A stretch of 64,000 nucleotides of DNA from Cantharellus purpuraceus (Eukaryota; Basidiomycota; Agaricomycetes; Cantharellales; Hydnaceae). The translations under genes and the position numbers were made by a program. The notes beneath the pieces are model-generated. The model made no database searches. It saw only the letters and a list, made by a program, of their open reading frames with translations, and had not been told where the DNA came from. This document shows, one piece after another, positions 21,244 through 63,234 of the stretch. Position 1 is the stretch's first letter. Every line of letters begins with the position of its first letter. The DNA lies in assembly GCA_025174535.1 (NCBI GenBank), contig JALBUN010000023.1, positions 1 to 64,000 of the forward strand, read 5' to 3'.

Positions 21244-23071
21244 TTACGAATGATCATCTCTCAAGAGTTTGGTGATACTTGCTTTTAGTTCTGCTACTTG
21301 GGGGCTATAATGCGTGTGAGTCACAGCTAGCGAATACTCTTTTTTCCACTTACTGAGAGATCGCTTTCCAGAGGTCCCGACATCAGCCAGTGACTCTGCT
21401 TTCAACTCCTCGGGAGCTAGAACGTGTGGGTAGTATTTCAACGAACATTCTCTGTTTCACTCACTGAGAGATCTCCTGCCGCTGGTCCCGACGTCGGCCA
21501 TGGACTCTGCCTTCAACTGCTCGGGGGCTGTAATGTGTGAGTCGTATTCAATGAGCTTCATTTGCTTCGCTTACTGAGAGATCTCCTGCCACTGGTCCCA
21601 ACATCGGCCAGTGACTCTGCTTTCAATTGGTCGGGGGCTATATTGGTGTGAGTCGCAACTAACGAATACTCTTTTTTCCACTTACTGAGAGATCGCTTTC
21701 CCGAGGTCCCGACATCAGCCAGTGACTCTACTTTCAACTCCTCAGGAGCTGGAACGTGTGAGTCATATTCAAAGAACATTTTCTGTTTTCACTTACTGAG
21801 AGATCTCCTGCCACTGGTCCCGACGTCGGCCAGTGACTCTGCTTTCAATTGGTCAGGGGCTATATTGGTGTAAGTGGCAGCTAACAAATACTCTTTTTCC
21901 AACTTACTGAGAGACCGCCTATTCCCGACACCGGTCACTGACTCTGCTTTCAATTGGTCAGGGGCTATATTGGTGTGAGTCGCAGCTAACAAATGCTTTT
22001 TTTCCCACTTACTGAGAGATCGCCTATTCCCGACATCGGTCACTGACTCTGCTTTCAATTGCGCGGGGGCTATAATGTGTGTGAGTCGTATTCAATGAGC
22101 ATCATATACTTCGCTTACTGAGAGATCGCCTTCCCCCAACATCGGTCACTGATTCTGCCTTCAACTGTGCAGGGGCTGTAATATGTGAGTCGTAATTAAC
22201 GTATATTATGTGCCCTACGTACCGAGAGATCTCCTTCCCCCGACATCGGTCACTGACTCCGCTTTCAACTGCTCGGGGGCTGTAATGTGTGTGGGTCGTA
22301 TTCAATGAGCATCATTTGCTTCGCTTACTGAGAGATCGCTTTCCAGAGGTCCCAACATCAGTCAGTGATTCTGCTTTCAACTCTTCAGGAGCTGGAACGT
22401 GTGAGTCATATTCAACGGACATGCTGGGTTTTACTCACTGAGAGATCTCCTGCCGCTGGTCCCGACATCCGTCAGCGACTCCGCTTTCAACTCCTCAGGG
22501 GCTGTGATGTGTGTGTGTCGTATTCAATGAGCATAATTTGCTTCGCTTACTGAGAGATCTTCTGCCACTGGTCCCGACGTCGGTCAGTGACTCTGCTTTC
22601 AATTGATCAGGGGCTATAGTGGTGTGAATCGCAGCCGACGAATGCTCTTTTTCACACCTACTGAGAGATCGTCTTCCCCCGACATCGGTCACTGACTCTG
22701 CTTTCAACTGCGCGGGGGCTGTAATATGTGAGTCGTAATTAACTAATATTATGTGCTCTTCCTACTGAGAGATCTCCTTCCCGACGTCCCAACATCCGTC
22801 AGCGACTCCGCTTTCAACTGCTCCGGGGCTGTGACATGTGTAAGCCGTGTATGACGAGTACTTTTGTTATACCCACTGAGAGATCGCTTATTAGCAATGA
22901 CGACACCTAGTTGCGAGTCCTTTATCAACTGTCCAGCTGCTGAAGAAAAAAAGATCGGGTAAGCATTTATGGAAAGTAAAAGATGGAATAAGCACTTAAG
23001 GGTCTCGCTAATGCGAGGCTCATTAGTGAAAAGACGAGTAAGGTGTGAGCCAGCATGTCTTCAAGTTTCAT
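21244..23071 (-). CDS. Secreted KEX2-type repeat precursor encoded by tandem mini-exons
   Basis: I reconstruct 17 exons. Exon 1 (23071-22996; in-frame ATGs at 23071 and 23056) encodes a signal peptide, MLAHTLLVFSLMSLALA, then RPL. Fifteen repeat exons follow: 22939-22877, 22828-22766, 22718-22662, 22613-22551, 22501-22439, 22391-22329, 22279-22223, 22175-22119, 22069-22013, 21964-21908, 21859-21797, 21748-21686, 21637-21575, 21527-21465 and 21416-21354. The last exon is 21293-21244 (TELKASITKLLRDDHS, TAA). Every repeat exon is 63 or 57 nt, phase 1-1, and encodes TP-[DEA]-[QE]-LKAES-[LMV]-[AT]-DVG, then TSG, N or G, then RR or KR, then SL; the first copy is diverged but keeps KRSL. Totals stay in frame (346 aa). 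Conserved dibasic sites after a signal peptide imply KEX2 cleavage in the Golgi, releasing 19-21-residue peptides. No homolog or function is recognised. Without a transcript the splicing is inference, though very regular. Confidence 0.8.
21354..22939 (-). repeat. Array of 15 tandem exon-intron units (about 104-112 bp each)
   Basis: Each unit is one 57- or 63-nt exon plus one 47-49 nt intron. The intron has a GTAAG/GTGAG/GTAGG/GTACG/GTGGG donor, a CTCAC-like branch-site block about 10 nt before the acceptor, and a TTACAG/TATAG/TTCTAG/TTCCAG-type acceptor. Five copies lack the six-base-longer TSG form. Introns are nearly as conserved as the exons, so the whole exon-intron unit has been duplicated. 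Confidence 0.9.
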
Positions 23072-24008: not shown

Positions 24009-24665
24009 ATGGCACGATATGGCAAAGCGTCTCTTATGGGGCTATTCTATCTCATCGCGGGTATTAGCAATCTTGTAATCCTATTGGGAACAGCGCACAG
24101 GATGCTTTCCACGGAGAATGCGCGGTCATACAGTAAGCGCATAGTTCTCAACAGAGCAGGTCAAAACCTCAGATGGGCGGCAGGCTACCTTGGCTCCGAC
24201 TTTCCCATTGAAATTCCTGCTGGTTCAGTCCCCACAGTCGAAATCACTTTTCACGAGGTATCTCGCTTCAGTCTCTCCGATTATGATACACGACGAAATT
24301 GGAAGACACTCCTTACAAATCAATTCGGCACAGGCTTTCAACATCTTGGCCCCTATCACTTCCGTTTTATTTCAGGCGCATACCATTCCCTCCATTGCGT
24401 GTACAACGCACAATTAGCATTTGACAGACCCCATCATCGTGAACATCCGGACCGCCACCTGGCCCATTGCTTATTATATATGCAACAGCTCTTCCTCTGC
24501 AATGCAGACATGACCCTTGAAGAGGGTGATTTTATGGCGCGGAACATTACAACAGATCGTGTTGGAACAACACGACGATGTAGAGATTGGTCAACGGTGG
24601 CAGCTTGGGTGAATGAAAATTCTAGAGGGTGGCTTAAATACAATGGAGTGGATCTCGAGATATGA
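24009..24665 (+). CDS. UstYa-family (DUF3328-like) membrane protein
   Basis: Single-exon, 218 aa. The ATG at 24009 is the first real ATG; the longer frame begins with TTG. A TM helix at residues 7-28 (ASLMGLFYLIAGISNLVILLG) is followed by a lumenal domain with the two hallmark motifs: HSLHC at 126-130 and HLAHC at 150-154, the second followed by LLYMQQLFLCNADMTLE, as in UstYa proteins (HxxHCxxxLRQxxxCxAD). UstYa homologues catalyse oxidative cyclisation or oxidation of KEX2-released peptides in ascomycete dikaritin RiPP pathways. Their roles in basidiomycetes are mostly unknown. It is divergent from the repeat-precursor gene next door, which is the strongest contextual hint of a shared pathway. 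The family call is from motifs; the substrate is inferred. Confidence 0.85.
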   Translation: MARYGKASLMGLFYLIAGISNLVILLGTAHRMLSTENARSYSKRIVLNRAGQNLRWAAGYLGSDFPIEIPAGSVPTVEITFHEVSRFSLSDYDTRRNWKTLLTNQFGTGFQHLGPYHFRFISGAYHSLHCVYNAQLAFDRPHHREHPDRHLAHCLLYMQQLFLCNADMTLEEGDFMARNITTDRVGTTRRCRDWSTVAAWVNENSRGWLKYNGVDLEI

Positions 24666-25945
24666 TTCTCAAAGGGATAGACACACCTTCGTATTTCTGG
24701 TGTAATTTTCCGGGGCTAAATGTTCACTACCCTTGCAATATTTCCATTGGGGACCCTGCAATCACGGGACCATAGCGACCGCTATGGAATTCCTTCATAC
24801 TATAATGGCCATTTTGGCCACTTTTTGCGCTGGTAATATGAAATTGGAAGGAGATGGCCGGAGATCCGCAAGATGTATCTCACCTCACTTCCATACTTGT
24901 CGAAATTCCTACCCACAGATCACAGCTCCCCTTACCATTGTTTTCTGTTCTTCCTTGGTCGACGGGCAAGCCTCCGGTTATTATTCATGCCCAGTGTGTT
25001 AATTTGGTCTCAAAGGCATATATGTACACGATCCAGATTTACGAAGGGAAAATTTTTAGCTGGTTCTTATTGCATTCACGATTTGGTATTATAGTCATGA
25101 AGTTCGCTTGAAACTCTCAACCAGAGAGTTACAAGTCCAAAACAAGATATATGCTCATGGAAGACACCTAGCTCCATTTTACACAAAGAGGTTAATTTAT
25201 CAAAGTAATTCCAGTGATCTAGCGAACTATTGTATGTGAGCTTTCAAGCTTTACTGAGATGTTCCACGTGCAGCATTGGATCTGAGGTAATTAGATACCA
25301 CGTGTACGGTGATGCGGAGATCAATCAGCAGGTTTATTCTTATATCATTTGTGGCGTCGTGGCGCCGGTGTGCAGTGCTTCGGAGATCACCGACCAAACA
25401 GCATGTTGATGGTTCCATATCCAAAGTCACACGATGAGTTGAACAGCTCCTCCTGTATGTGACGGGCGATATCAAGTACTGATGCACGAATAAGGATTCG
25501 TAACAGAGGTGCCGTCGCTATTGTTTAAGTGCTTCGGGTCGGCAAACTCCCTTCCGAAGGCCTGTGCCAGGAAGCGTGAGCAATGTCCGCGAAGGTTGTT
25601 TTGTGACTATCCGAGTCGTGGGTCGGATGCCACGATGCCCCGCTGGGACCAATGAAGCATTCCGGTGTGATTGTCCATTTCCCGCAAGAAGCAATCGGAG
25701 TTATCCGGAGCCCGATCAACCATACGAACCATGTTAAGTCTGTACTTATAGCCATCCAATAGGTATCTTATTCTCCGCAGTGCAGTGGCAGTGCAGAACT
25801 TATACAGAATTCAAAAACAATGGAACCCGAAACTGAAGCTGAAATCTCACACATGCATATTTAGCTGCCTAGGAATTTAATACAACCGGTATATATGTGA
25901 TTACATATGAACGTTGGGTAATCACTCCATACCGTCAAGACTACC
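24666..25945. other. Intergenic, no gene recognised
   Basis: Small frames at 24733-25111 (+) and 25251-25755 (-) show no domain. A short palindrome, ccatagcg-ac-cgctatgg, lies at about 24771-24788. It could be downstream sequence or a decayed gene. Confidence 0.35.
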
Positions 25946-26943
25946 ATGCTCGGACGTTTTCGCGCGTCGCAATATCGTTACAGTCGTCTTTCGCCTACGG
26001 GCGATAAGGGCGACGACACCTTGTCCTCGCATGACAGCACAGATGAGCTGACTCACCACCTAGCCCCGTCCAGGAAACCTCGCATTCCTCTCTATGCCAC
26101 GGCTGTTTGCGTGCTCTGCACAATCACAAACCTTTGCATTCTTATTTACACTTGGTCACACCCGTCTACCGTAAACCTCAGCCTGTATGAACTGCAGTCG
26201 CCTTTGCGCACTGACTTGACTAATCTTCGCCGTCCGAGCCAATTTCTGGGACTAGATAAGGTCGAACGACCATCCCCACCAATCCACAAGGAGATCATCA
26301 ACTTTCCATTCATCGTTGGACGAGTTGACAGGGCGCATCCTCGAAGAGTGGTCACTGGTGGACGGGGGAGTCACAGAATATCTATGAGCGGCATCGAGGC
26401 GAGGAAGGTTGAAGCGAAGGGGAGTGTGAGTCGCTGTGTTGTCCCATGCCCTTGAGGGCTCTAAATATCTCCACTAGATTGAAACCGTCATCCAATTTCG
26501 TGTGATTGATTGGGGAATGGAATTATGCACCCTTCGTATCCGTTTACCCAGCAAAAGTGACACTCGTTTCAACTCTAATGTCACCCTCGACGATGACCAC
26601 AATGCCATTGAAATCTACCGTCTCGAATCCAACTCTCTCCTCCATCTTGATTCTCTCACATTCCATACACGTCCTCGAAAGAGCGAGAAGCTTGGCACCA
26701 TCAAAGCTGTCTATAACATGGATTGGAATTACGACTTCCCGTGCAAAATGGACACTCTCCACGCGTTTACCCTTGTTCCGAGCAATGATAAGACCAGTGT
26801 CGGGTGGTGGCAGGACAAGCAAGCAGAGTACCCTGGTGAGTGCTCTTTTCTTTCTTGGAGACGTTACTGTTATGAAATGCGTATCGGCCTGACTATTACG
26901 AACGCCTACAGCCGTGTATATTATTCAACATTCGACAATATAA
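25946..26943 (+). CDS. Type-II membrane protein of an unnamed Agaricomycete family
   Basis: Three exons, 25946-26425, 26478-26835 and 26912-26943, give 289 aa in frame. The N-terminal cytosolic tail (MLGRFRASQYRYSRLSP) precedes a TM helix at about residues 51-70 (LYATAVCVLCTITNLCILIYTW). Then come the box LRRPSQFLGLDKV, a PP..E..NFPF..GRVDRAHPRRV block, and a domain starting TVIQFRVIDWGMELC with HLDSLTFHTRPRKSEKLG, DFPCKMDTLHAF and WWQD, ending AVYIIQHSTI. The same layout occurs in the N-terminal half of the gene at 29856. I have seen this architecture repeatedly in Agaricomycetes but know of no assigned function. Gene order places it between the UstYa-like and peptidase genes. Confidence 0.75.
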
Positions 26944-27337
26944 AAAAAGTACATGTTGACCTAATAGAGCTGAATAGAAATGTTATGTCTTTCCACGCAC
27001 TGGTAACTGCATTGTGCCATCAACATGCCATTAACAGAAAAACCAAAACCAACTATTATCCATTGTGACTGAGTCGCTACACTATCTGCGTATAATTCCT
27101 ATTAGATAGTCGCTATAGTTTTGTATTTCAAAGGGATATCGCCGCCACCGGGATCACATCGGGCATGGCATCCAGTCAGTGAATAGTTCGTATATGAATG
27201 TCCTCTTGGCCAGAAAGTATAACCCAACAGCATTCAGAATAGCCACTTACAATTATAGTGAGACACTATTATCTCAAGAAAAAGGTCATTCATCCACTAG
27301 CTAAGCCTTATTGTACCCGACATCGTTTACAAACTAT

Positions 27338-29643
27338 TCACCATGCCTTATTGTCCAATCCTAGCACTTCGTTGAAGAACACCAACTGTCTCTCCAGGGC
27401 CGTCTGGATCGTGGATGCGTACCTCCAACCGTGCCCCTCATCGGGGAAGAGAATAAGGTCCACCTTCCCACCATTCCTTTTAATTGTGTCCACCATGATT
27501 ATCATCTGTTCTGCGGGAACAACGGTATCTTTCTCTCCTTGTAGAACCTAGATACACCCCCATAAAAAAAGTGTGACACGAAAACTAGGAACTCGTTGGA
27601 AACTTACCAACAAGGGCATCTTGATCTTATCCGCATGGTAGATGGGACTTCTCTCTCGCCACACGCTCTCACATTCCTCCCACGGGCCTCCCATCAACCG
27701 ATCGCAAAGGTAATACTCAAACTTATGTAGTATCTCATCCAACCTCCTCATATCACTCACCCCATAATGCGGCGAGCCAGCTGCAAACGCTGTAGGCAAT
27801 GTGGTTGCAATCTGCAGTACAGTATATCCACCGGCTGAGCCACCGTGCACAACGGCGCGGTTGGAGTCGACGAGACCCAGTTCGTCGAGCTTGAGAACGC
27901 TTTGATATGTATCTTCGACATCAAGCACTCCCCATTTCCCGTCAAGACTTTCACGGAAAGCGCGACCAAATCCAGAGGAACCGCCATAATTGATGTCAAC
28001 GCTGTAACCGTTTAGGGTTAGTCTTCGATTATCTTATGATTAGTAACTCACTATGCCCATCCCCTAGAGGTGAAAAATTGCTTTGACCAATCTAGGTTTG
28101 CAGGTGCCATGAGAGGGGGTCCCCCATGAATGTATACAACCACTGGGGGCTTTTCATCGCCGAACCCCTGGTAATGTGGATTCTTCGGTGCATAGTAGGT
28201 GATATGGCAAGTGCGAGTATCTGGAGGTAATATGACAGCTTTATACTCTCCCACGGAAATAAAGGACGACGGCAAGTCATCGCTTTCAGGGGAAGGAATG
28301 AGCGATTTAAATTGAGGTTTGCCATTAGCATCGATGGTGAGCTCTGTGAGGACCTCTGGCGCATCCGCGGGCTGACCTAGCATGACAACTTTCCCTTGTC
28401 CGTTACCGTGCACGTATTGGATATTTGCATACGGCGTCTGGACCACGGATTGTGTCCCTTGCGCGACATCACAAATGTACAGCTTTGAGCGACCGTTAAA
28501 GTATGAAAGAAAGACGAGCTTCGTTGAGGTTAGTGCACCAGATCCATGGCGAGATAAGTACCACTGAACAGCTCCAAATTCCTCTACCACAGGCTGAGAG
28601 AAAAGTGGGTATGCTTTGCCGGTCTCGGCGGGATTAGAAGGGTTAAAGGTGAAATACCATGGGTTGTGATACCCGCTGATGTCTGAATTAAAGAATATGC
28701 TGTTGTTCGATGCCCAATTAGGATCTACCGCAGAAACAGCCTCGTGCTTTCCCGCTACGTGGATCATTTGACCAACCTCTAGCCTTTGTCCATCAGTTGA
28801 GATGCTGATTGGAGCTATAATGATTTGAGCACTTTGGAAAGGAAATTCGGGGAAATCCCTATCTGCGATATGAGTTGTAAGCCCCAGGACAGTAGAACAC
28901 ATGTTACCATTGCTGCCAGACAAGGAATTGCCCATCGGGGCTGAACTTTGCACAGGAGTAAAAGTCGGCACCTTCAATTAGCTTCGTCACGGAAGAAGTC
29001 ACCGCATTAATAAGGACAAGATATGTCAAGACTTTCGCTGGATGGGGATCGGTGTGATCTTCTACTGTACACACAATAAGCTCTGGATGCTTTGGATGGA
29101 CGGTGAAATCTGCAAAGCGTTGGACAGGATTTTCTATTCCATTTGTCAGCCTGGTGGAATGAAGAAATCTGGAGCTCCTCCTGACCTGGAGTGATAGGGG
29201 TGGGTTTCCTTCCTTTGGTCGTTTTATACACTCGGCGGTCTTGCATGTGCGAAAAGTATATCACATCCCCAAACACCGTGGATGCGGCACCACCGTACTC
29301 GTGAACCTGAGTACGAGCATCCCACGAAGCATCGAAAACGTCTTGACCATCGGATGCGTCAACAATGGCCGACCTGCCGTCTTTTCGTGTGACCATGAGT
29401 CAAATCTATGTGTTGACATTCGTTCCTTTAACTCACTCTCTTTCGGACGTTTTTGTGCAACATAAACCTTGGACGTGACTGCATCCAAGAGCACATCTTC
29501 AATGCCCGCAGAAAGACTCTAAGCCAGTGGAAGTAATGAATACCGGCGAGCGTTATAGGCAAGTGTTACATCCGAACCTGTGTAGCCACTGCTTGAGCAG
29601 TGATCGGTGAGATCCAGTTTCCGTAGCGCGCCGTGTTTATCAT
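27338..29643 (-). CDS. S9-family serine peptidase (prolyl oligopeptidase / acylaminoacyl peptidase type)
   Basis: Start ATG 29641-29643 (MINTARYGNWISPITAQAVA); the YGxWxSPITA N-terminus is typical. The beta-propeller part includes WDARTQVHEYGGAA, RFADFTVHPKHPELIV and FSPDGQFLVWQQWD, the last joined by an intron with donor GTAACA. The alpha/beta-hydrolase part has VVVYIHGGP, the nucleophile motif HGGSAGGYT, the acid residue in LQGEKDTVVP and the catalytic His in PDEGHGW. It ends LGLDNKAW, stop 27338-27340. All three catalytic residues are present, so it should be active. No signal peptide is seen, so it is probably cytosolic. It is convergent with the 25946 gene and divergent from the 29856 gene, sharing a 212-bp upstream region with the latter. 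It could trim or recycle peptides of this locus, or be an unrelated peptidase. Confidence 0.85.
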
Positions 29644-29855: not shown

Positions 29856-31368
29856 ATGTCTTCAGAATGTAGCTCACCATCTACAAAGGAGAATACATAT
29901 GTCGACAGTGGTGGGAGTGAAGTCAAGCCATGTAAGTGCACTTCCGATCGTTTGAAATTTATTTTCACCATGACACGAAATTTCGCACAGCAAAATCATT
30001 GACGTTTGCCATTGTGTGCATTATATGTACCATCGCCAATTTCTACGTTTTCAATGCCATGGCACCACCAAAGGCCATGACCTTTCGGGACGTTGCAAGA
30101 CTCAGGCGTCCGAGTCCATTTATTGGTCTTGACGAGGTCGGCGATCGTTCACGGAAGCCTCTCCTGATATACCCCAAAATCTTGTCCAAAATCAACCAAG
30201 CTGACCCTGGACGTGTATACGGAGACGATGCAGATGAATTTTCTGTGTGGGAAGAATTCGTCCCACCCGTTGATAGGGAATTCAAAGTAACCCCTATGGT
30301 GAGAACTAGAATGAAGTAAAGAGTGTAGCCATGATAACTTCTTCATCGAAGATATCAACAGTCGTCGAGTTCAGATCCATTGACTACAGAATGGAAACCT
30401 GCGAGCTCCTTCTCACTACGCCCCCGGTTATGAACTCGGATTCGTCCTTCCACTTGGGTTCTGGAGACAATCGAGTCAACTTATGGAGATTGAATGTATC
30501 ATATCCTATGGACCTGCAGACGCTGTCGTGGACCACCCGACCACCCCGAGCGCGCAGGCTTGACACAATTGCTATCACGCCCGGGATGAATTATAGCTAT
30601 CAATTTCCGTGCCCATCAGACTCCCTCCATGCATTTGAGTTCAGCGCTACGGGGGATTCCATTGATGTCGAATGGTCGCAGAACCACAGCGATCCCAATC
30701 CTGGTGAGGTTCTCGATTACAATTGTGCTCTCAGAATCAATGACCGGTATAATTTAGCGGTGGTAGTAATGCAGCATGCCAGCACTGGGGGCTCTGGTCA
30801 TAAATCCCCCTCAAGACCAACGCGAGAACGCAATACAACAGATAAATACGAAAGTAAGTTGTTAATGCTTTATATGAATGTGCTACGACCTCACTAGGGT
30901 AACATAAACTTCATTGATCCAGCTAACCCCATACTCTCCTGGTCTATCCCTGAGCCACAGCACGTCGCTATGCGGATTATCCCTTGGACATCATACTATG
31001 AATTGGGCTCTGAAGCATGGAAGCGATTACTCCCTTCGAGTGGACATGTCATTCATCTTACTGATCCTGATGGCACAGTGAGCACTCACACAGTCGCCAT
31101 GTTCCACCAGTTGCGTTGCCTCGATATTTTGCAGCAGTCTTATTTGGATGAAGGAAGCCATCGGACGTCGCCTCTCGCACAACACTGTCTGAACTACATT
31201 AGGCAGACCTTGCTCTGCCAAATGGACTTGAGGAATGAAGAGCAAGGTTCGCATCCCACGAACAATGGGGCAGATGCCTTGTGCTATGATTGGGAACCCA
31301 TATATGAAGAGGCTAAAAGGAATTATGCGGCGTACATGCACTACACTTCTCGGGCGCAGAGCACCTAA
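29856..31368 (+). CDS. Fusion: unnamed type-II membrane family plus UstYa-like domain
   Basis: Exons 29856-29931, 29991-30298, 30352-30703, 30758-30853 and 30923-31368 stay in one frame (425 aa). The N-terminal half mirrors the gene at 25946: TM helix SLTFAIVCIICTIANFYVF, box LRRPSPFIGLDEV, ISTVVEFRSIDYRMETC, LSWTTRPPRARRLD, FPCPSDSLHAFEF. Where that gene stops after VYIIQHSTI, this one continues through VVVMQHASTGG and a linker into LSWSIPEPQHVAMRI and a UstYa-like region: VAMFHQLRCLDILQQ and LAQHCLNYIRQTLLCQMDL. Both HxxHC motifs are degenerate (HQLRC, LAQHC), so catalysis is doubtful. It may be a true two-domain protein or two genes misread as one. The linker has no TM helix and no stop, which favours fusion. 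Confidence 0.7.
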
Positions 31369-32713: not shown

Positions 32714-34039
32714 ATGTCTAGCGCACCTTACTATGGTCCTGTCAACGAGACCGCTTCAGATATATTCCTCGAGAAGACATTTCTGATTAGTGGATACTTG
32801 ACAGCCTTGGGATTTGGTGAGCCTCTATCACCGCAGCCTATCGTTCTGTACCGTTAGACATGTTACCTAGGTGTACAGCTGGTGCTTTATATCGCGTGCA
32901 TGCGGATCCTGTGGAGGGTTGGAAGCCGCAGTGGCTTCACCTACTTCCTTCTCTTCTATATAACCTTGCTATGCAGTATGAACACCATCTGGACTGCCAC
33001 ATCGGCAGTTGGGCTTCAACTCACGTTCATTGACAATCGGAATTATCCAGGAGGTGTCATTGGTTTTCTAGACGTGGAGTTCGCCCTGCCCAGTAACGTC
33101 GCGTCCTTGACTTCGTATATTATTGGAAATGTATTGGCAGACGCATTGCTAGTAAGTTCACGCGTTTATGATGATTCACATTTTGACCGTTACTTGAGCA
33201 GCTATGGCGTTGTCGGGTCATTTGGTCAGCCTCATTGGGTGCAAAGGGCGACTACCTGATGATTTTTCCTTCTCTCATACTCCTAGCATCGTTAGGTTAG
33301 TCACATCCGGTGCTACTTCGTTGCTTGGACCAACCCACTTTGAATTTGTATAGCAATGGGGATTGCCTTTGATATTGAAACGGCGTCGCCTGATGGTTTA
33401 TTTGGTTCTACAACCGCATCGTTTGCCATTCCATACTTTGCCATTTCATTATCTCTCAACATCATTCTCACCTTAATGATTGCGGGTCGAATTTGGTATT
33501 ATCAACGAAGTGTCGAGTCCGCTATTGGGGGCGACTTTGCGGTGCATTACACATCCATCACGACGATGTTTGTCGAGTCCGCAGCCATATACTCCGCAGT
33601 CTCTCTTCTCCTATTGATCACCTTCACCCTGGGCAACCCGATCAACCAAATATGGCTGGGCATTGCTCCCTCTGTGCAGGTAATCTCTCAAAATCTTACG
33701 TACTTAATTCAGACCCTAATGTGCATGCCTTTGTTTTAGCTAATCACGAGCTATTTGATCATCTATCGTGTCGCGGAAGGCCGTGCATGGAGTGCGGATA
33801 CAATCACAAAAACAAACGGCCATACAGCACCGGTCTTCCGTCGTCCCGCTTTCACCATTACCCGTGGGTTGACAACCCAAGATACTGCTCCCAGTAGCAC
33901 AGTTCCTGACATTCCCCTTGATGGAATTACAACAAAGACCGATTCTGGCGATAAGAATAACACTGTCCACGTTGTGCGCACTGCACAGACTTCGAGTAAC
34001 GCGGGATCAACTGAGTGGAACTACCAAGAGGGGGTGTAA
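32714..34039 (+). CDS. Multi-pass (7TM-like) membrane protein, hypothetical
   Basis: Start ATG 32714 (MSSAPYYGPVNETASD). The first intron, with donor GTGAGC after GFG, joins VQLVLYIACMRILWRV. Later exons encode FTYFLLFYITLLCSMNTIW, PSNVASLTSYIIGNVLADALL, IFPSLILLASL, ASFAIPYFAISLSLNIILT, FVESAAIYSAVSLLLLITFTL and LITSYLIIYRVAEGRAW. A hydrophilic, Thr-rich tail ends NYQEGV at 34039. The pattern of about seven hydrophobic helices with a cytosolic tail is common among uncharacterised Agaricomycete membrane proteins and may be receptor-like. No ligand or G-protein motif was identified. Intron borders are approximate. Confidence 0.65.
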
Positions 34040-35609: not shown

Positions 35610-38402
35610 CTAAAGTGGCACATCTCTTCGCAATACATCTAATAATTGCCGTGTTTCTTCGCTCAGACTTGGAACTCCCCAATGTCCACATGTGTTATTT
35701 TCCTGGCCAAGTTCCACCGGAGCTACGCTTTGTTCGCTCTGTCGCCTCTCTTCGTCTAGCTTGTTGCAGACCTGCTTAACCAGCTGAATTAACTGATGCG
35801 TTTCCGGTCTGTTGTCCCATTGCTCCCAATGCTTCTTGGCATATGCAGCAACAGCTGGAAGACTTTCGACTATATCCAAACTTGAAAGGTCTTTCCAATT
35901 CTCCATGCTTGTGTCATAAAAAAAGGGTTCAGTGAATATGTCAAACCATGCATCCAGAATGAGTGGCCAAATCCGATACGCCTGGACGGCTCTAAGGAAT
36001 TCGTGGTCGTCGCCAATGATTGCAAAAACGTGCGTGAGATGCAAAGGCAACGATCCGCTGACAACATTGGTCCGAAGTTGAGGCGACAGTGTGTTGGCAA
36101 TAGCAAAACCGCTCTTGAAATGGCCATGGCGATCGAGGTGACCATGCCATGCGGCCTCTTCGGAAAGGACACAGAGCAAGCCGAGATAGCACGGATTCCG
36201 GTACCAGTTGACTTCTGGCAATTCACGGACCGGATTACCGTCGACAGAGGTGCTGGCGTGTTGTTGCATAGGAAGATCTTGTGCTTGCATTACTGAAATA
36301 AGAGCCCGTGAGAAAAGATATCGGAGTGCTTCGTCATGCCTGTCCATTGAAGCCACTTCTGTGCGAAGTGCGTAAGCCGCACTCAAGGCTGCATGGCGCG
36401 TACGAAGCGGGACTTTTGACCCCATGAATTGGATTATCATCTGAATGTAGAGCCCAAAGTGTGCCTGTGTGTGCCAGTCTGGCCGTCCACCCAATAAGCT
36501 CGTGATTCGTCAGAACCCTGTCGGTAGAGATATGTCCAGACCTTTTGTTCCTCCACCTACAGGATACAAAAAACTGAGATGAAGTGCAGCCGCGACATCT
36601 ATCGAATGAACTCGATTTCCCTCTATACCTTGATCCTCAAGGAGATGGAAGCAGAGCTTGAGGCACTGGACGGATCGTCGATAAACATTATAACCTTGAC
36701 AGTGTTTACTGAATCCTAGCGTCTGAAGGAGCTTCCTTGCCTCCAGGGCATACCCCCGTTGTGAGTCTGGGCTCGCGCCGAGAAGTAAATTTAATATAAG
36801 GTCTATCACCAAGCGTTGGAGATCCTCGATAGCTGCACCGGAGGATTATGGAGACTTTGGGTCATGGAGGCACTTGCACAAAGATGAGGACATTTGAGTG
36901 TTGGCCTCTGTTGTGCAAATGGTAAGTGAGAATATGGGCCATCCACATGCGATCAGAGAATGGGAGGAATGTGATGTCCAGGACATGACGATCATTGACA
37001 GATATGCTATTATTCCGAATGTTTAATAGACCCTGGATACCACATGCAAGATACAAGTGGAAGATTGCCTGTAGGCAAGTCCGCACTCGTTCTCGCATGT
37101 GGAGTGTTATCTGCCACGGAGAACGAACGTATGCATATAGCTGGCTTGTCAGTTGATCCAACACAATGGTCACATCATGCCCGTCCGGCCACTCAACATC
37201 TGGTACCATATGCATTGAAGTAGCGATGATGTCATTTTCGGTAGATGTCTCGATAATCCATTGGATTGATCGTGCTCCAGATGCATCTGCAGGAGATTCC
37301 AGGTCCTCTAAATCAATCACCTTAAAAGACACCGATTCGTCCAAACTTCCAGTTGACTCTAGGTCATGGGTCAGCCTGAGAGTTCTTAGCTGCAAGGCTG
37401 GCCATAGTTGCAAGAGATACATGCGAAAGCGAGAAATTAATCTGCAGACCATATCCTTTCCAAACTTGAAGACGCCTCTTGGGAAATCTCGCAGATGGTT
37501 CAGGAAGCTGGCCCAGGACAGGTGGCGCGCTCGACGTGCCCAAGCCACAATTCTTTCTCGGAAGTTATGTAGGACACGGTTGAGAACCGTCGACACGGGA
37601 GTCTGGAATGGGCAGTCCTGCGATCTCAACGAAGCGACCACCGTGAAGACGTAAAAAATGAGTCCAAATGACGTTGCTCCCATGACAACGCCTGCAACAG
37701 TATGTTGTAGGTCCATATGTTTTCTGCAATAGCGACTCCAAAGAACAGTAGGGACAGTTGCAGGAGAATCTGAAGGGCAGCGATAATGATGTTGAAATGC
37801 CATGTTTTCAATCCGTCCAGCTTCCGCTGCCTCCACATGCAGCGTTCACGTAAGGCGCTATGGTCAGATCGGGACGTCTTGAAATGCCCAAGCCATTGCT
37901 TTGCAAGCCCCCCGCCAAAGGCGGCGAAAAGATTCATTGACAGGCTTGTATGGGCGAGTGACTGGATCCAAATAACTGTGGAGCTGACACCCGTCCACAC
38001 GGGAGGAGAGGCCTCTTGTTCTGAGAACGTCCCATTGTCCACCTTGTTAATCAAGAGCCTTAACAGCGCATTCGTTGTATCGCTCGCTTGGGGACTCAGA
38101 CTCGGCTGCATGTTGACAAGGAAGGCAGAACTGACGGAGGAGAAAGACCTGCCTGAAGGGTGAAAGGGTGCTTCGATTGAGTGCAGGTAGAAGAAATTAT
38201 GGAGGGAAGACACATGAATATGAGGAGCGCCTCCAAGTCACGATTATGCCTGTCGATGAACTCGTCGTCATGCTCTGAGGCCACATCCTTTTCAGCGCGT
38301 GGAGTCTTCGGGACCTTGCATTGCGTCGAGAATAAGTCGAGGAGTGGTTTCAGGTCTGGAGATACATGCGGATAACGTTCTCGAATAGGCAGAAATGTGC
38401 AC
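35610..38402 (-). CDS. DUF6535-type transmembrane protein, large hypothetical
   Basis: Basidiomycete-specific family of unknown function. The N-terminal region holds EHDDEFIDRHNRDLEALLIF, then SSVSSAFLVNMQPSLSPQASDTTNALL, WTGVSSTVIWIQSLAHTSLS with KQWLGHF, and two hydrophobic helices (IIIAALQILLQLSLLFFGVA; VAGVVMGATSFGLIFYVFTVVASL) before CPFQTPVSTVL. This matches the DUF6535 layout. A long helical C-terminal part follows (36862-37700, 36510-36812 and 35610-36494 in successive frames joined by introns), ending LLDVLRRDVPL. The 5' end is uncertain: exon 1 probably lies upstream of 38402. The join into the AGLFS box at about 38160 seems to lack one base (GCAGGTCTTTCTCC), a possible frameshift. 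Confidence 0.6.
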
Positions 38403-61940: not shown

Positions 61941-63234
61941 AATATGAGTCACCAGCTCCTGCACACATTCATCAGTTGTCTCTTATAACCTCGCAAATCC
62001 CTACGATATCTCCAATTTGGACTTGGTACGCTCAGGACCTCCTCGCACGATTCCGTCGCCGCGACATGGAAAACGACCGTACTAAAGGCCCTCTTTTCAA
62101 TGTGAACGCCAATGGGCAGCGAAGAGACTTCAATGGCATTGCATACTCACCGATGGTCGCAAGTGATGCCGATGAAATTTTGTTCGCGGGTGACTGCTTC
62201 GTTGCCGGGTCCTTGTAGAGGTGTGAGTTCATAGATTCACCAACCTCCGGCTCTGATTTATCTGTGGTCCCCATTAATTGATGGGGACCACAGATAAAGG
62301 TTGGTGAATCTACACTTCTACAAGACCCGGACGGCACCAAAGCGATCGAACTTCCCGAGTTTCCAGGGCCCCGCCCCCCCAAGGAAATATCACTATTTCC
62401 CGACGTATTCGCATATCCAGCAGAGGTCAAAAGAAACAAGAAAAGACCACTGTCAGCGGCTGATGACATAACTTTCTCCACAGATGGCACAGATACCTTT
62501 GTTTCCTTGAAGCCTGAGAAGAAGTTTCGCTGCCGCACCCTCACTATCAATGGGGATTACTTGTCAGTGCCTGAAGTTGTGCACCTTGCCCGCGTCGTGC
62601 ACGAACATCACCACACATATGAGCTCCTGCAATACCAGTGTTACTAGTTTCCAGAGATGCATCACGGTAAAGAGGCTGATCGAGGACGCGGCCAAAAAGA
62701 AGGCCTTAGAGACATTGGATCAACAGTCAATCTCAAGCCCATACAAGGAAGGGATCCACCGGACAAAGCTCAAGGTTGGCTAATTCCAATTCGGACTGGA
62801 AGCCTATTATGTGAGGCGAGGTAAAGCAGACACTCCAAGATTTACGTGGAGTACCTGGCGGCTTGGGATGATATGAAGAAAACAATTGCCCTGCGCGTGG
62901 AGCGCAGAGAGACCGGGAAGAGAGCGGTGAGTTTCTGATCAGTGTTGTATGTTCAGACGCTGATTATTATATGGGGCTGGATCAAAAGCCACAAGAAGCT
63001 AAACAAGCTTTAGAGGAGGAAACGGAAAGGAGGATAGCTGCTGAACAAGAGATCAAGACCGCTGAAGAAAAGGTGAAGGTTGAGGTTCAGGTTGCTGAAG
63101 AGAAGGCGAAGGCTGAGGTTAAGGCTGTTGAAGAGACAGCCCGTAAACTTGCAGAAGAGTTTGATATGTTCAAACGGCAATACGCTCCTGGCCCTTCTGC
63201 CCATCGCACGTCTGCGACTCATGTTGCATCGTGA
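61941..63234 (+). CDS. Unidentified coding fragments, coiled-coil C-terminus
   Basis: Plus-strand segments read as coding: SLITSQIPTISPIWTWYAQD, NANGQRRDFNGIAYSPMVAS and DADEILFAGDCFVAGSL (to 62218). After the inverted repeat come LQDPDGTKAIELPEFPGPRP, PKEISLFPDVFAYPAEVKRN, FRCRTLTINGDYLSVPEVVH and LARVVHEHHHTYELLQYQ (62300-62640). A last frame (62971-63234) is a highly charged coiled coil, LEEETERRIAAEQEIKTAEE onward, with Glu/Lys/Ala heptads. Whether these are one gene, or a gene broken by the inverted repeat, is unresolved. No family recognised. Confidence 0.4.
62205..62330. repeat. Large inverted repeat (fold-back)
   Basis: The left arm 62205-62274 and right arm 62281-62330 are reverse complements. 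An 18-bp perfect core (tttatctgtggtccccat / atggggaccacagataaa) is continued outward by gattcaccaacc / ggttggtgaatc and ccgggt-cttgtag / ctacaag-acccgg. The left arm has about 11 extra bases (tccggctctga). The loop is only about 6 nt. Confidence 0.85.

Follow-up and report, generated by a model that had tools for sequence, protein, structure and literature searches.

The minus strand of the window (the whole stretch of 64,000 nucleotides of Cantharellus purpuraceus DNA that was analysed) carries, from position 23071 down to 21244, a gene of 17 exons that probably encodes a secreted repeat precursor processed by Kex2 and feeding a cluster of UstYa genes, its peptides being most likely oxidised. 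We put the probability of this explanation at about 0.6. It is built on sequence, reading frame, constraint and gene neighbourhood, from which we infer splicing, secretion, cleavage and modification.

No base had to be altered in order to write the 17-exon model. Exon 1 (22996-23071, 76 nt) encodes the initiating ATG and a putative signal peptide (MKLEDMLAHTLLVFSLMSLALARPL), with a hydropathy peak at residues 11-21, and is followed by an unusual donor, GTGCTT. Exons 2-16 are exactly 63 or 57 nt each, and their last codons, which spell [KR]R-S-L, are followed by a single base. The first of them, exon 2 (22877-22939, 63 nt, TAGQLIKDSQLGVVIANKRSL), ends in KRSL and is a diverged copy of the repeat, while exons 3-16 provide 14 clean copies with the consensus TP[EDA][QE]LKAES[LVM][TA]DVG(TSG or G or N)[KR]RSL. 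Nine of these are 63 nt long, namely exons 3 (22766-22828), 5 (22551-22613), 6 (22439-22501), 7 (22329-22391), 12 (21797-21859), 13 (21686-21748, an LKVES variant), 14 (21575-21637), 15 (21465-21527) and 16 (21354-21416), and five are 57 nt long, namely exons 4 (22662-22718), 8 (22223-22279), 9 (22119-22175, an AP variant), 10 (22013-22069) and 11 (21908-21964, a GVG variant). The motif TPxxLKAESxxDVG is exact in 11 of the 14 clean repeats and departs at a single site in the other three. All 16 introns are GT...AG and in phase 1, which makes every repeat exon symmetric; intron 1 is 56 nt long and introns 2-16 are 47-49 nt long, and the donors of introns 1-4 (GTGCTT, GTGGGT, GTAGGA and GTAGGT) seem weaker than the remaining ones. 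The C-terminal end, in terminal exon 17 (21244-21304), can be read in two ways: with its first AG as acceptor, the last intron is 49 nt long like the others and the ending is TPK-stop (21304-21294), for a protein of 333 aa, and with its second AG it is 60 nt long and the ending is T-ELKASITKLLRDDHS-stop (21293-21244), for a protein of 346 aa. An earlier note on this DNA had listed a signal-like exon, a short last exon and, between them, 15 exons with lengths of 63 or 57 nt, and both coordinates and lengths were re-derived here, on a strand (minus) that it had left unstated. Its view that each of the 15 exons is one copy of the repeat is borne out for the 14 clean ones and fails for the diverged exon 2, and its intact frame of 346 codons depends on use of the second acceptor.

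The pattern of substitution among the repeats speaks for the proposed reading frame. In this frame, pN/pS of the 14 clean repeats is 0.245 (bootstrap 0.12-0.43), whereas the two remaining sense frames yield 2.80 and 2.85, and the mean pairwise difference is 0.13, 0.07 and 0.31 at codon positions 1, 2 and 3. Antisense frames give 0.96 (with 11 stops), 0.247 (one stop) and 2.43 (no stop), and since the low one shares wobble positions with the sense frame, pN/pS alone does not decide the strand; what points to the minus strand is the signal-like sequence of exon 1, a spliced frame free of stops and the pattern of GT and AG. Across repeat units, mean identity is 82.6% in exons and 65.5% in introns. 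In introns 3-16, GT and AG are invariant (14/14) and seven of the 49 other alignment columns are, a regularity whose weight lies in the lack of any regular unit without these dinucleotides, because the exons were found by means of them. A frame-keeping length (57 or 63 nt) is seen in 14/14 clean repeat exons, alongside intron lengths that vary between 47, 48 and 49 nt. Read from the ATG without splicing, the frame meets a stop after 34 codons. Five of the seven 48-nt introns (introns 2, 4, 10, 11 and 13) are stop-free in frame; intron-retaining read-through products were nevertheless rejected as the main form, since the 47- and 49-nt introns break the frame and GT/AG occurs in every unit. The repeats thus look coding and under constraint, splicing and coding of the array are well supported by these sequence features, and the array is very probably a real gene.

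Each of the 15 repeat exons contributes one [KR]R site to the precursor, and every one of these sites is followed by SL (15/15). The N-terminus of the precursor is hydrophobic, with a hydropathy peak of 2.55 at residues 11-21 and values that stay at or below 0.99 after residue 30, and the genome has one above-cut-off match to a kexin-type P domain (P_proprotein, at C23:692403-692717), with a single TAA within its span that may be an intron. This layout fits the definition of a KEP (three or more near-identical repeats with KR, RR or KK between them), the signal peptide being called by hydropathy only, and it is in line with the notion of a Kex2-repeat precursor put forward in the earlier note, with cleavage and secretion as predictions. 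That note had expected about 15 peptides of 19-21 residues. Predicted trimming by Kex2 and Kex1 gives 14, of which 12 are distinct, and they are 17 or 19 residues long once the dibasic pair is lost, with a net charge of -1 to -3; the monoisotopic masses calculated for the 12 distinct peptides run from 1641.857 to 1932.953. The exon border falls two residues past the dibasic cut, so that each predicted peptide spans a splice junction, and since its SL comes from one exon and its TP...G from the next, only a spliced mRNA would yield the mature peptide. None of the 14 clean repeats contains F, W, Y, H or C. An amphipathic helix is a feature of lytic Kex2 peptides of the Ece1/candidalysin kind, and a membrane-lytic peptide of that kind seems unlikely here given a hydrophobic moment of 0.11-0.13, below the shuffled mean of 0.20, in three 14-residue repeat variants (among the 12 distinct peptides).

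Upstream of the array lies a divergent gene on the plus strand, UstYa-A (24009-24665), which belongs to the UstYa oxidases by Pfam (PF11807, DUF3328). The start codons of the two genes are head to head, 937 bp apart. UstYa-A is one open frame; its N-terminus holds a hydrophobic segment, and its motifs read HSLHC and HLAHC. Its homologues at E<=0.001 number 25, of which 11 are labelled with an organism (Mycena, Antrodiella, Gymnopus, Artomyces, Steccherinum and one member of the Auriculariales); these are agaricomycetes. In an alignment of UstYa-A with 10 of its 25 homologues (11 sequences), the HxxHC(x)nHxxHC residues never vary, and they correspond to what the available text of one study describes as the copper motif of DUF3328 enzymes (PMC12435403). 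A second member of the family, UstYa-B, is represented by a plus-strand exon ORF (30898-31365, PF11807 by Pfam) with the degenerate motifs HQLRC and LAQHC. In UstYa-B and two relatives elsewhere in the genome (C30:40858-41562 and C30:38156-38905), the first copper motif is altered to HQLRC, HQLRC and HQLWC, respectively, and the second reads LAQHC, RTLHC and HLNHC, suggesting from sequence a partner subunit or a changed chemistry.

Between and beyond these two genes are further candidate members of the cluster. Two But2-TM genes on the plus strand (25922-27065 and 29936-30894) have in common the motif LRRPSxFxGLDxV. In the first, an N-terminal part with a hydrophobic segment and the motif in the form LRRPSQFLGLDKV (25946-26452, ORF extent) precedes a But2-like domain (26478-26843) that falls short of the curated cut-off for PF09792, with an E of 1.6e-4, and is 36% identical to the second gene; there, the N-terminal part, likewise with a hydrophobic segment and the motif as LRRPSPFIGLDEV (29936-30316, ORF extent), is followed by a But2 domain above the PF09792 cut-off (30310-30894, ORF extent). 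Among the But2-TM relatives elsewhere in the genome is one at C30:41824-42805. Structure models of UstYa-A and of the But2 domain, with mean pLDDT of 48.2 and 48.8, were too poor for a fold search. Family X, a putative multi-pass membrane protein judged by eye from its topology, is encoded at 32858-34000 on the plus strand (exon ORFs 32858-33256, 33344-33736 and 33740-34000), and a Pfam scan of the first two of these ORFs gave nothing above cut-off. Further family X places are C30:43213-44371, C9:716355-717228, C18:125136-126066, C19:28772-29705, C23:3638172 and C16:6562, the matches at C19:28772 and C23:3638172 covering about 35 residues each. A peptidase gene of the S9 (prolyl oligopeptidase) family sits on the minus strand between the two But2-TM genes (27551-29399); PF00326 is matched in 27551-28033, and the ORFs at 28054-29399 have no Pfam match and were assigned by position only. 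The ORF comparison with other UstYa loci of the genome brought up no relative of this peptidase, and whether it is a cluster member is uncertain. Farther along the window, a minus-strand ORF at 37629-38237 has a DUF6535 domain (PF20153), and a 33-nt tandem unit at 63061-63136 would, in one reading, encode a repeat rich in A, E and K (AEEKAKAEVKA).

The same gene families are found together elsewhere. A Pfam search located 11 UstYa places in 40.15 Mb, two of them in the window, and a search with UstYa-A itself added four outside it, one of the matches (C16:65) covering just 55 N-terminal residues at a contig end. All five But2-TM relatives found are within 25 kb of a UstYa match and four are within 5 kb; for family X, the figures are seven of seven and five of seven, the numbers of relatives in both cases being lower bounds. 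The neighbourhoods of the 15 UstYa positions make up 1.17% of the genome at 25 kb and 0.29% at 5 kb, a comparison that treats the loci as independent although UstYa clusters may be duplicates of one another. By these sequence matches, the survey shows UstYa, But2-TM and family X as a recurring set across the UstYa loci of this genome. The linkage points to parts of such clusters that are little mentioned in the open-access literature searched; the main text of PMC7329392, for example, mentions But2 zero times.

What ties the array itself to the cluster is its position. Around five further UstYa loci (C9, C18, C30, C45 and C19), 40-kb stretches were scanned for tandem repeats and for recurring dibasic sites, one scan covering 17-30 kb per locus and the UstYa places at C45:3467624, C19:52770, C16:65 and C23:3639289 being left aside, and no Kex2-type array was recognised, so that the link depends on a single locus and on position there. 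Several candidates were dropped by eye in the process, namely K/R/E-rich low-complexity stretches at C9, C18 and C19, two sets of three weakly similar dibasic sites at C45, an SDERAKR repeat at C19:22.4 kb that resembles part of a coiled coil, and a 45-residue repeat at C19:16118-16500 that lacks dibasic spacers. Among Basidiomycota KEPs, the main text of one survey places a DUF3328 gene within 15 genes of only 6.1% (103/1680; PMC7329392). The available text of another study names hydroxylation, halogenation and macrocyclisation among the reactions of DUF3328 enzymes, whose targets are inert C(sp3)-H bonds (PMC12435403), so an aromatic residue would not be needed in principle.

Taken together, these data outline a model in which tandem duplication of a unit of about 111 bp, consisting of a 57-63 nt exon and a short phase-1 intron, would have given rise to the array, whose copies would since have been kept by purifying selection. 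Splicing would join the 15 repeat exons in frame, the precursor would enter the secretory pathway, a kexin would cut it after the 15 KR/RR pairs and Kex1 would trim the basic residues, releasing the 14 acidic peptides (12 distinct ones), each 17 or 19 residues long. Because the array gene belongs to a cluster of UstYa, But2-TM and membrane-protein genes, the peptides would most likely be oxidised on their way through the secretory pathway, by hydroxylation, halogenation or cyclisation.

The strongest rival concerns the last step of this model. The earlier note had taken a plain secreted peptide as the product, having missed the neighbouring UstYa genes, which make a modified peptide possible. 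A Kex2 repeat protein that releases plain linear peptides, beside a UstYa cluster acting on something else, would be in line with the lack of aromatic residues and Cys in the repeats, with the failure to recognise an array beside the five other UstYa loci and with the agaricomycete KEP peptides of one study, which in its available text are linear and minimally modified (PMC9769878). Agaricomycete KEPs had been expressed in Pichia pastoris in that work. The plain-peptide explanation is unlikely, if worth keeping in view, since the array and UstYa-A are divergent neighbours 937 bp apart, yet the 5-kb UstYa neighbourhoods amount to a mere 0.29% of the genome. Cleavage might also be dispensed with, the product then being a secreted or wall-bound structural protein with uncut or partly cut dibasic pairs. 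Near-identical repeats in secreted proteins are indeed typical of structural proteins as well, but [KR]R followed by SL is kept in 15/15 repeat exons, even in the diverged exon 2, as selection for cleavage would leave it, and we regard this explanation as improbable.

A function in signalling to the fungus itself, as an alpha-pheromone-like or peptide-hormone precursor, would go with the presence of a putative multi-pass membrane protein gene (family X) in the cluster, and the general layout is that of alpha-type pheromone precursors as presented in PMC6339444. A UstYa neighbour is compatible with such a function, because 17 of the 76 KEPs (22%) homologous to putative Basidiomycota pheromones have DUF3328 neighbours according to the main text of PMC7329392. 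Nevertheless, the dibasic cut is followed by SL in 15/15 cases and never by the XA/XP dipeptide that Ste13 removes (a rule taken from the text of PMC9769878), protein and Pfam searches revealed no similarity to pheromones, and a comparison of family X with Pfam, in search of receptor homology, gave nothing above cut-off, all of which makes a pheromone or hormone very improbable. Least credible is a decaying or non-coding tandem array without any product. Exons that differ by about 17% between repeats, introns that differ by about 35% and the failure to find a homologue of the precursor could be read in this way, but hardly the pN/pS of 0.245, the frame kept in 14/14 clean exons and the splice dinucleotides in every unit.

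Searches for relatives left the precursor on its own. Among the candidates scored, which were those sharing most words with the query so that very distant relatives may escape, protein searches returned no homologue of the full-length precursor at E<=1 (7994 candidates) and none of its first 168 residues at E<=10 (7993 candidates), in agreement with the earlier note, which knew of no described family with this repeat. Pfam gave nothing above cut-off for the precursor, the weak matches being to four families with low-complexity repeat models (best E 2.6e-4). Within its own genome, the array DNA matched itself once, the repeat protein gave 11 matches, all inside the array, and the signal peptide with exon 2 gave two, both in the array gene. 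The pattern [KR]RSL|GTRNG occurs 48 times in the genome (65 times in a backwards control), with 15 occurrences in the array and the other 33 never two per contig within 1 kb. The open-access literature searched, by titles and the starts of abstracts, held no KEP with one repeat per exon, which leaves uncontradicted, within that literature, the further remark of the note that it knew of no KEP whose repeats map one-to-one onto exons. The word exon is absent from the main texts of PMC6339444, PMC7329392 and PMC9769878; intron and splic are absent from the main text of PMC7329392, and intron appears once in that of PMC9769878, in connection with cDNA cloning. As far as the open-access literature shows, the layout is thus new among KEPs.

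The KEP surveys start, as their texts describe it, from predicted proteins (PMC6339444, PMC7329392 and PMC9769878), and a gene of 17 exons with exons of 57-63 nt would be easily mis-predicted; such precursors may therefore have been missed. The mini-exon layout itself can serve as a search rule, the target being repeated units of about 110 bp in which [KR]R directly precedes a GT donor. Should UstYa enzymes act on the array peptides, they would provide a case of DUF3328 enzymes working on a peptide that has no aromatic residue. It is tempting to go further and see here a new kind of fungal RiPP, combining a precursor of symmetric mini-exons, UstYa enzymes working on non-aromatic cores and a module of UstYa-A, UstYa-B, But2-TM and membrane proteins, a proposal that we make tentatively and consider doubtful as a whole. 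Were it true, exon skipping or the gain and loss of units would alter peptide dose with the frame intact, and But2-TM and the membrane protein would be unrecognised parts of the module, perhaps a helper, transporter or sensor.

How does the array compare with known systems? Secreted products encoded by many small symmetric exons are found in animals, in the micro-exon genes of schistosomes and in the caerulein precursors of frog skin, the latter with one peptide copy per exon. These systems have no UstYa cluster, and their likeness to the array is one of layout only, sequences not having been compared. With the dikaritin systems (ustiloxin, phomopsin, asperipin-2a and victorin), the locus shares a Kex2 repeat precursor beside UstYa genes, one of which has both HxxHC motifs. 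Known dikaritin cores are very short and have a cross-linked aromatic residue, whereas the array has no aromatic residue and would give pieces of 17-19 residues, and its locus differs in being accompanied by But2-TM and family X genes. We therefore rejected the array as a standard dikaritin precursor, its repeats having neither aromatic residue nor Cys. As in DUF3328 copper enzymes such as CctR, in the description available from PMC12435403, UstYa-A has HxxHC(x)nHxxHC and an N-terminal hydrophobic segment, whereas UstYa-B, the second enzyme of the locus, has degenerate motifs. The array resembles the KEPs in its hydrophobic, signal-like N-terminus, its near-identical repeats flanked by KR or RR, the presence of a kexin-type P-domain match in the same genome and a repeat size within the class of 9-24 residues, the commonest in most Dikarya in the text of PMC6339444. 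It differs from them in that each repeat is on its own exon of 57-63 nt and the predicted peptides run across the splice junctions.
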